Positions 19,467 through 41,617 of a stretch of DNA of 47,417 nucleotides are shown here, one piece after another. Source of the DNA: Nitrospirota bacterium (lineage in GTDB: Bacteria > Nitrospirota > Thermodesulfovibrionia > Thermodesulfovibrionales > SM23-35); contig JACAFE010000033.1 in NCBI GenBank assembly GCA_013388435.1, forward strand, positions 1-47,417, given 5' to 3'. Each line of letters starts with the position of its first letter. Position 1 is the first letter of the stretch. Under the pieces are notes generated by a model, which worked only from the letters and a program-made list of their open reading frames with translations, searched no databases and was not told the DNA's origin. Position numbers and translations under genes: made by a program.

Positions 19467-19492
19467 TAATAAATGTCCTTAAGGGAGTTATA

Positions 19493-39109: not shown

Positions 39110-40324
39110 ATGCTTAAACCAGAACATATAGATTATAAAAGCAAAAAAGATACTCCTGAAGGTTTTTTGTTTTCAACTGCTGAGGCTGCAATAAAAAAGC
39201 CCGGGAGAAAAGATATTGCTTTAATATATTCACGGAAAGAAGCAGTTCTGGTAGGAATGTTTACTACCAACAAAGTAAAAGCAGCCCCTGTTAAACTCGA
39301 TATGAAAAGAATTATATCAGGGAAAGGGCAGGCAATTATAGTCAACAGCGGCAATGCAAATGCATGTACTGGCAAAAAAGGGCTGGATGATGCAAAAGAA
39401 ATGACTGAATTGATCGCCAGAGGCTTAAATATAAAGTCCTCGCTTGTCTATGTGGCTTCAACAGGTGTTATAGGTGTGCCGATGCCTATGGGAAGGATAA
39501 GGCAAACCATACCATCATTAATTGGGGGCATTGGGAAAGCATCTCTTGAAGATGTTGCAAGAGCTATAATGACCACAGATACTTTCCCTAAAATCATTAG
39601 TAAAAAGATTAAAATAGGAAAAAGCATCTGCACAATTTCAGGTATATGTAAGGGCGCTGGAATGATATGTCCTGATATGGCAACAATGTTATGTTTCATC
39701 CTGTCTGACATATCAATTAATAAAATTGCTCTCAGTAAAGCCCTTAAGGAATCCGTAGAATTATCTTTCAACAGACTTACTATTGACGGGGATATGTCAA
39801 CGAATGATACAGTACTTGCAATGGCTAATGGAATGGCTAAGAATTCTCAGGTTTTATATGGTTCGAATGAATATGCCAGGTTTTCTAAAACACTTATTCA
39901 GTTAACCGATGAAATGGCAAGGATGATAGCTTATGATGGTGAAGGAGCCACAAAATTTGTTGAAGTTTCTGTTAGAGAAGCAGCTTCTGTAGCAGAAGCT
40001 AAGAAAGCAGCACTTGCTATTGCAAACTCAAATCTTGTAAAAACCGCTATATTCGGTAATGACGCAAACTGGGGACGCATAATGGCTGCTCTCGGGTATT
40101 CTGGAATAAAAATGAGAGAAGATAAGGTTGATATATTTTTTAATAATGTTCAGGTGGTTAGAAACGGAATTGCTTCAGGGAATGATAAAGAAGCTGGAGA
40201 AGAATTAAGAAAGAAAGAAATAAAAATCACAATAAAATTGAAAAACGGAAAAGCCTTAGCTAATGTTTATACATGCGATTTAACCGGGGATTATATAAAA
40301 ATTAACGCTGAATACAGAACATAA
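39110..40324 (+). CDS. argJ: Glutamate N-acetyltransferase (ArgJ)
   Basis: Recycles the acetyl group from N-acetylornithine to glutamate. It self-cleaves between Ala and Thr in 'AGMICPDMATMLCFI' (near residue 190); TSTGVIGVPMP, 'LTIDGDMSTNDTVLAMANG' and the C-terminal DLTGDYIKINAEYRT are conserved. 404 aa is full length. It is unclear whether it is mono- or bifunctional. An acetyl-CoA-dependent starter, possibly the GNAT at 9134-9592, would prime the cycle. Confidence 0.96.
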   Translation: MLKPEHIDYKSKKDTPEGFLFSTAEAAIKKPGRKDIALIYSRKEAVLVGMFTTNKVKAAPVKLDMKRIISGKGQAIIVNSGNANACTGKKGLDDAKEMTELIARGLNIKSSLVYVASTGVIGVPMPMGRIRQTIPSLIGGIGKASLEDVARAIMTTDTFPKIISKKIKIGKSICTISGICKGAGMICPDMATMLCFILSDISINKIALSKALKESVELSFNRLTIDGDMSTNDTVLAMANGMAKNSQVLYGSNEYARFSKTLIQLTDEMARMIAYDGEGATKFVEVSVREAASVAEAKKAALAIANSNLVKTAIFGNDANWGRIMAALGYSGIKMREDKVDIFFNNVQVVRNGIASGNDKEAGEELRKKEIKITIKLKNGKALANVYTCDLTGDYIKINAEYRT

Positions 40325-40345: not shown

Positions 40346-40375
40346 TTGACAAAGTTTTTTGAGTGATGTTATAAA
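40346..40375 (+). promoter_or_regulatory. Strong promoter of a putative small RNA
   Basis: TTGACA (40346-40351), 18-base spacer, and TATAAA (40370-40375) preceded by TG-n (40367-40369), an extended -10. Predicted start of transcription is near 40382. No gene on this strand follows for 1.5 kb, so it appears to serve the short hairpin unit alone. Confidence 0.6.
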
Positions 40376-40381
40376 TAATTA

Positions 40382-40444
40382 AATGCCTCGTTATCTCCCC
40401 TAATACTGCTGTCCAACTCCCACGGACAGCAGTATTTAATTTTT
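40382..40444 (+). ncRNA. Putative ~63-nt small RNA with two CUCCC motifs
   Basis: Delimited by the promoter at 40346-40375 and the terminator hairpin at 40402-40436. The single-stranded 5' part contains UCUCCCC (40394-40400) and the hairpin loop contains AACUCCCAC (40415-40423), both complementary to Shine-Dalgarno-like GGGAG. The loop's AACUCCC is an exact complement of GGGAGUU at 19483-19489, the apgM ribosome site. It also encodes a possible 6-codon leaderless peptide (40383-40403). No known RNA family is recognised. It could instead be only the argJ terminator with a fortuitous promoter. Confidence 0.5.
40402..40444 (+). terminator. Intrinsic terminator after argJ / small RNA
   Basis: Perfect 13-base arms AATACTGCTGTCC (40402-40414) and GGACAGCAGTATT (40424-40436), nine-base loop, then a T-rich tract to 40444. 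The opposite strand lacks a good T-run, so it is oriented for plus-strand transcripts. Confidence 0.85.
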
Positions 40445-40498
40445 GAGGGCATAAAATATTAAATAATCTTTAACCTCAAAATTCATCTGAAAACTGGA

Positions 40499-41617
40499 TT
40501 AAATTACTATTAATTCATATTCCCTGCTTCCGAGTCCAAGCCTTTCAGCCTCTTCAACCTGTATATGATAGGGCTTTAAAGATAGATTAAAAATAACATC
40601 CTCTCCCTTTTTAATTCCCTTGTCTTCAGCAGCAGATTTAGGCAAAGGTTCTTCTTTGAGAAGCAAATCAATACTTGCTTGTTCTATTGCAACTATATCA
40701 TCTGACATGCATATGCCTATATCCTGAATTACAGGAACATCAGCTATTGGCATACAGTCGCATTCAGGCTGAATTTCAGTAAGGAAATTAATATATATGA
40801 CTTTGTTTGGTTTAAAAGTACTCAAAACAGCCCTGCCAGCTTCAGCAAGAGAACGCATAAAACGTTTATCATCTTTCGGGAGAGAAAGAGCATTAGATTG
40901 GCAAACCCTTTCACATCTTCCGCATCTCCAGCATTCTTTCTCATCCCATATCATTTCATCGTTTTCAAATTTAATTGCATCCAGAGGACATATCTCCATG
41001 CACTGATAACAAAGTTCACATTTTTCCTTATCCCATGAGAGTTTTCCTTCTCCCAGTGTATGCATAGCTCCTCTCCCACATTTCCATCCGCATTGTCTGT
41101 GTTTTGAACTTACACCTCCCATTGCTATATTCTTTATTGCTCCTGCATACCCTGCCTGTATATGACCTTTAACATGAGAACAGACAACCATGGCAGGAAC
41201 ATCATGAATAACGCTCGCAACAGCTATTTCACCGAGAATCTCGCCTGCTTTTACCATTATACTGTCATTACCGTAAAGACCGTCACCGAGAACTACAGGA
41301 GCTCCAACCGACAAATGATTTATACCGTTATAATTCGCAACTTCAAGGTAATCCAATCCTTTAATTCTTACAGTATCTGTTACAAAAGGCTTTGCTTTAA
41401 TTCCTTTCAATGCTTCAACAACTTTTCTCAAAAAAACAGGCCTTACTATTCTGTGCGCTCCTTCTGAACCCCAATGTGTTTTGACAGCAACCCATTCATC
41501 AGGCTCAAAATATTTTTTTAAGTCAAATTCATTCAAAAGCCTTTCCAGCTTACCCGGCATACTTTCATCATGTTTCCATTTTATTGCTCTTGCGGATGCG
41601 AAGTAAACTTTTGACAT
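40499..41617 (-). CDS. DUF362 protein with two [4Fe-4S] clusters
   Basis: A 372-residue protein: a DUF362 domain (about 1-190, opening 'SKVYFASARAIKWKHDESMP') and a ferredoxin domain with CELCYQCMEICP and CWRCGRCERVCQ (about 200-250), followed by a C-terminal part. Family members are widespread in anaerobes; their redox function is unknown. The strong AAAGGAGG site precedes ATG 41617. It is flanked by convergent argJ and divergent nadB. Confidence 0.9.
   Translation of the reverse strand: MSKVYFASARAIKWKHDESMPGKLERLLNEFDLKKYFEPDEWVAVKTHWGSEGAHRIVRPVFLRKVVEALKGIKAKPFVTDTVRIKGLDYLEVANYNGINHLSVGAPVVLGDGLYGNDSIMVKAGEILGEIAVASVIHDVPAMVVCSHVKGHIQAGYAGAIKNIAMGGVSSKHRQCGWKCGRGAMHTLGEGKLSWDKEKCELCYQCMEICPLDAIKFENDEMIWDEKECWRCGRCERVCQSNALSLPKDDKRFMRSLAEAGRAVLSTFKPNKVIYINFLTEIQPECDCMPIADVPVIQDIGICMSDDIVAIEQASIDLLLKEEPLPKSAAEDKGIKKGEDVIFNLSLKPYHIQVEEAERLGLGSREYELIVI

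Follow-up and report, generated by a model that had tools for sequence, protein, structure and literature searches.

A free-standing small RNA gene with a nearly invariant anti-Shine-Dalgarno-like 5' end in the Thermodesulfovibrionales

The window analysed here is a 47,417-nucleotide stretch of DNA from a member of the Thermodesulfovibrionales (Nitrospirota), an order to which genomes were assigned by record titles. Two genes named from their translations, argJ (39110-40324, plus strand) and a convergent DUF362/4Fe-4S gene with no assigned function (40499-41617, minus strand), flank a compact element on the plus strand. By its sequence, this element opens with a perfect -35 hexamer, TTGACA (40346-40351), an 18-bp spacer and an extended -10 element, TG-T-TATAAA (40367-40375; TG at 40367-40368, hexamer at 40370-40375). 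A mechanical promoter scan omitted this TTGACA/TATAAA promoter because it demands T at the sixth -10 position, where TATAAA has A. With a start about 7 nt past the -10, as the promoter spacing suggests (± 3 nt), the covariance match and the fold delimit a predicted small RNA of about 62-63 nt (40382-40444, plus strand).

The predicted RNA begins with an unpaired, anti-Shine-Dalgarno-like segment, GCCUCGUUAUCUCCCC (40385-40400, plus strand; order consensus GCGCCUCGUUACCUCCCC), whose conservation is apparent in an alignment of 94 homologues and which we propose as the mRNA-pairing region. It is followed on the same strand by an intrinsic terminator hairpin (40402-40436), recognised from the fold and from compensatory changes, in which a perfect 13-bp inverted repeat, AATACTGCTGTCC (40402-40414) and GGACAGCAGTATT (40424-40436), encloses the 9-nt loop AACTCCCAC (40415-40423), and then by the U-tract TAATTTTT (40437-40444). 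CTCCC occurs twice, at 40395-40399 and in the hairpin loop. A preliminary description of the locus had listed these physical details (TTGACA, 18 bases, TG-n-TATAAA, 13-base hairpin, U-tract, two CUCCC), and on reading the sequence we found all of them correct. The fold of the RNA at 40382-40446 has an energy of -20.3 kcal/mol (z = -6.3), equalled by none of 200 shuffles. The 5' 20 nt are unpaired in its minimum free energy structure; the 5' end was no more unpaired than a shuffled 5' end (0.79 vs 0.82). Judged from its sequence, 40346-40444 is a free-standing, non-coding sRNA gene with its own promoter and its own terminator.

The element is widespread in the order. A DNA search of 60 relatives recovered it in most genomes of the same family and in several other families. 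Covariance searches of related genomes placed the sRNA in 123-124 of 176 order genomes: a first model, built from 16 transcripts, found it in 124, nearly always once per genome, and a second, built from 94 sequences, in 123 as well as in one genome of the same class. The window copy itself matched at 40382-40446 (E 2.9e-21 and 4.1e-16 with the two models). Eleven of the 13 families of the order contain the sRNA by these models. Of 396 genomes drawn from across the phylum, 100 contained it, all in the order except one same-class genome, with no covariance match outside the class. Scanning named records for a pattern of promoter plus 5' end gave 82 matches, 80 of which are Nitrospirota by title (Nitrospirota, Nitrospirae, Thermodesulfovibrionales and similar) or uncultured metagenome-assembled genomes. 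The other two, a Barnesiella contig and a Thermoplasmata MAG contig, were taken as chance matches because no hairpin follows the motif. The sRNA was not found in viral contigs.

Some genomes carry additional matches. The window's own genome (G000) has a second, partial match, TTAATTAAATGCCTCGTATCTCCCAC, at C20:13625-13651 (L002 1501-1527), which consists of the 5' segment without a hairpin and is possibly a decayed copy. Weaker extra copies were seen in G164 (C37, C40, C52), G165 (C5, C171, C222), G099, G100 and G117; two of those in G165 are equally far from the starts of their contigs, a pattern that a repeated mobile element would be expected to give.

Across 94 aligned members, the order consensus consists of TTGACA, 17-18 bp, a TGnTATAAT-like -10, a few bases and then the RNA: AGCGCCUCGUUACCUCCCCU, AAG, the stem CUGCUGUCC, a variable loop, GGACAGCAG and a U-tract. 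An exact TTGACA lies 35-51 nt upstream in 78 of 80 loci found by an RNA-only model, compared with 8 of 1021 control windows; this is a separate test of promoter conservation, because the covariance model did not contain the promoter. Among 145 distinct upstream regions in the alignment, a set that includes loci selected for TTGACA, about 77% have TG one base ahead of the -10. The first 20 nt of the RNA, AGCGCCUCGUUACCUCCCCU, are nearly invariant. Five positions of the 5' segment are identical in all 94 homologues, and its CUCCC is present in 93. The order consensus of the 5' end contains ACCUCC, as in the 16S anti-Shine-Dalgarno sequence of a relative (3' end GGATCACCTCCTTTCTAA). The window copy has U in place of one C of ACCUCC, and pairing with G is still possible there. 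Of 39 substitutions in the segment, most of whose sites are C, 27 are C>U and leave pairing with G intact. Its complement, GGGGAGGUAACGAGGCGC, is a strong Shine-Dalgarno (SD) sequence plus downstream bases.

The hairpin behaves differently. Its stem is maintained by covariation, 11 of 13 pairs showing compensatory changes (73 cells vs 16.9 in shuffles), and a run of 4-9 U follows it in 88 of the 94 homologues. Stem and loop differ in families f3 and f4, where the 5' end is unchanged, and the loop sequence is not conserved: elsewhere it reads AAAUCCCAC, AGUUUCCAC, ACAAUCCAC or is shorter. Only 8 of 94 relatives have a CUCCC within the hairpin part. The earlier proposal of two anti-SD motifs is therefore upheld for the 5' CUCCC and unsupported for the one in the loop. 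The pairing proposed between the loop and the ribosome site of apgM fares likewise: the complementary GGGAGTT is present before apgM at 19483-19489, but the loop is not conserved, and the pairing is therefore unsupported. The preliminary description had also raised a leaderless micro-ORF (MPRYLP in the window), which would make the product a peptide. In the window an ATG does stand directly after the predicted start; however, only 10 of 94 homologues have it, most having GCG (AGCGCC) with no start codon, and a peptide is already refuted by this lack of conservation, to the point that we give it practically no credence. Since the 5' end is almost invariant, the loop CUCCC and the ATG are rare and the hairpin drifts, we conclude that the working part of the RNA is its 5' end and that the hairpin serves as terminator.

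With respect to INDEPENDENCE from neighbours, about a dozen different genes were found upstream of the sRNA, among them argJ, a divergent CRP/FNR-type regulator, a methyltransferase-like gene, acsA, the RNase Y gene, miaB, and TrkA-type and response-regulator genes; these names come from translated sequences, not from family searches. Downstream, the convergent DUF362 gene is found in most loci and families and other genes in the rest. In G030, a 6S RNA gene (L052 3768-3956) lies about 1.7 kb from the sRNA. The window has no plus-strand gene downstream of the element, its next gene being the convergent DUF362 gene, and in most relatives too there is no same-strand gene directly downstream. A transcription attenuator or riboswitch is thereby ruled out, as the preliminary description had argued for the attenuator.

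The arrangement in the window also invites a simpler reading, in which an argC-argJ operon simply ends here in its ordinary terminator and the promoter ahead of that terminator is there by chance. In favour of it, argJ is found 78 nt upstream, the element finishes with a good terminator, and in the window's family as well as in some f3 genomes argJ is what precedes the sRNA. Yet the same RNA is found behind, or divergent to, many unrelated genes, and the promoter and 5' segment are conserved where the spacer and flanks vary. A conserved promoter and 5' end in contexts other than argJ largely refute this reading, which we regard as highly improbable. Because promoter and fixed 5' end are kept beside varied genes, the element is an independent unit, neither part of argJ nor an attenuator. 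The stand-alone gene first described in the window is in this sense conserved order-wide, promoter included, which is the opposite of what conservation of the terminator alone would look like: promoter and 5' CUCCC are both retained.

The sRNA tends to occur together with the RNA chaperone Hfq. The window's genome encodes Hfq (E 2.9e-30). Among the 176 order genomes, 107 have both sRNA and Hfq, 16 the sRNA only, 21 Hfq only and 32 neither; Hfq is thus encoded in 107 of 123 sRNA-positive and 21 of 53 sRNA-negative genomes, and was undetected in 16 sRNA-positive ones. This co-occurrence has a Fisher p of 4e-10 when uncorrected for kinship and of 0.044 by genus. In family f10, 16 of 16 genomes lack both the sRNA and Hfq, and both are absent from genera g46, g49 and g51 of family f12. 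Overall, Hfq was undetected together with the sRNA in all or nearly all members of f10, g46, g49, g51 and g28, a joint absence that may reflect repeated loss of Hfq-based regulation.

Considering the anatomy of the gene, its conservation and covariation, its independence of neighbours and its statistical co-occurrence with Hfq, we think that the element is probably a free-standing gene whose product, a trans-acting sRNA assisted by Hfq, uses its 5' end to block ribosome-binding sites. We infer transcription, Hfq binding, mRNA pairing and repression as follows. The strong sigma-70-type promoter would yield an RNA of roughly 62 nt, made of a ~20-nt unstructured 5' end, directly followed by the terminator hairpin and a U-tail. 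Hfq would hold the RNA through the U-tail, and the 5' end (CUCGUUACCUCCCC) would pair with the G-rich ribosome-binding sites (GGGGAGGU plus a few downstream bases) of several mRNAs, blocking 30S binding and lowering translation. By analogy with the SisA-D and RoxS sRNAs discussed below, Hfq-assisted blocking of ribosome-binding sites appears to be the best-fitting mechanism.

We looked for mRNA targets by scoring the 2216 predicted gene starts of one complete relative, G030. The best sites there were those of actP (12 bp, at the ribosome-binding site), qmoB (11 bp plus wobble), an NHL-repeat gene, a TlpA-like gene and some multiheme cytochromes. Over these 2216 starts, shuffled 5' ends gave duplex energies as good as those of the real one, and no gene class was in excess once SD strength was removed; multiheme cytochromes, Fe-S proteins and exported proteins were accordingly rejected as a target class. 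Individual candidates fared no better. actP has no close orthologue in G000 or in most of the order, and its places do not coincide with pattern matches in other genomes; since most of the order lacks actP, its exact extended match is seen in few genomes only. The sequence GGGGAGGTAA precedes qmoB in several f12 genomes, a match that recurs in one family, and qmoB was rejected since GGGGAGGTAA is also present in G067 and G074, where the sRNA was not found. Several f12 genomes conserve the qmoB ribosome site of G030 (C1:2142934-2142987), GGGGAGGTAATCGAA, irrespective of whether they carry the sRNA. For the DUF362 neighbour, a complementary site at the gene start was present in 0 of 75 cases. 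The top non-self site for the extended complement in G000 falls within another gene, in antisense orientation, rather than in a start region. When the window's start regions are ranked for pairing with the full 5' end, apgM takes eighth place. Across the 176 genomes, the exact extended complement occurs before an ATG in 47 places, compared with about 27 for the reversed pattern. Pairing is either short and multi-target, or general, or not with mRNA.

If pairing is general, the RNA could be the ribosome's anti-Shine-Dalgarno tail in soluble form, competing for strong SDs at large and so acting as a global initiation brake at strong-SD mRNAs. If true, this would explain the invariant core, the lack of a conserved individual target and the fact that the best predicted targets are the genes with the strongest SDs; we consider it rather unlikely. 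If the partner is not an mRNA, the RNA could act via a protein, as titrator or scaffold, with the conserved 5' end as the protein-binding sequence. Some 15 nt that are near-invariant across 11 families, with no conserved target found, would fit a fixed protein partner. The invariant core, however, is exactly anti-SD (ACCUCC) and needs no protein to explain it, a CsrA-type GGA motif is absent from the 5' segment, and the predominance of C>U changes that keep G pairing also speaks against a protein site, though most sites are C. We consider a protein partner unlikely.

A partner RNA is a further candidate. The sRNA could be paired with another, G-rich sRNA, as in the CrfA-SisA pair of Caulobacter, either occupying the place of SisA or being a sponge or decoy only. 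C-rich sRNAs with such a core are indeed paired by G-rich sponge RNAs (PMC12559287, PMC8216469), and there is one intergenic GGGGAGGTAA in G030, near 60981. Against this, no conserved complementary RNA was found, and the exact extended complement is rare before start codons, as counted above. We rate a sponge partnership as very unlikely and retain Hfq-assisted blocking of ribosome-binding sites as the preferred reading.

Finally, we compared the sRNA with known systems. No Rfam 15 family matched at or above its gathering cut-off, and the hits of permissive scans all lay far below it. When the window copy was scanned permissively, PsrR1 (RF02701) scored highest among bacterial sRNAs, with 17.7 bits against a gathering threshold of 42. 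The sRNA is not a member of that family, with which it shares an unpaired C/U-rich stretch before the terminator hairpin. RybB-type enterobacterial sRNAs, which are Hfq-dependent and multi-target and are transcribed from a sigma-E promoter, carry a conserved seed right at the 5' terminus, with a terminator after it. The layout of a conserved 5'-terminal segment and then a terminator is the same here, but the RybB seed is unrelated and not anti-SD, and the promoter here is of the TTGACA sigma-70 type.

Its nearest counterparts include C-rich sRNAs. RoxS/RsaE and FsrA of Firmicutes have a C-rich motif that is proposed or shown to pair with the SDs of metabolic mRNAs (PMC8216469). They share with our sRNA a C-rich motif complementary to the SD, differ in having several C-rich regions and more structure, and gave no match to it in permissive Rfam scans. 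SisA-D, the alpha-R8 sRNAs of Caulobacter crescentus, have the core UUUCCUCCCU, are Hfq-dependent and repress many mRNAs (PMC12559287). Like them, the Thermodesulfovibrionales sRNA is a short RNA in an Hfq context with a CCUCCC-type core that is conserved and single-stranded, reading UUUCCUCCCU in SisA-D and UUACCUCCCCU here. The SisA core, in contrast, is internal, downstream of a weak hairpin, whereas here it sits at the 5' end with about eight more conserved bases ahead of it (GCGCCUCG). SisA-D, from another phylum, also comprise four sibling copies and a sponge partner, whereas the sRNA described here usually has one copy and no sponge was found for it. So short a core says little about a common origin.

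Neither the core sequence nor any report of an order-wide conserved sRNA in Thermodesulfovibrionales was found in the literature searched, and this looks like the first such sRNA described for the order, whose members are mostly uncultured bacteria, many of them in sulfur cycling. It offers a compact natural example of an sRNA with its anti-SD at the 5' terminus, retained almost to the letter in 11 families although the hairpin drifts, and the presence and absence of sRNA and Hfq, with whole genera lacking both, form a ready comparative system. The family is new to Rfam; C-rich, SD-pairing sRNAs as such are already known from SisA-D and RoxS.
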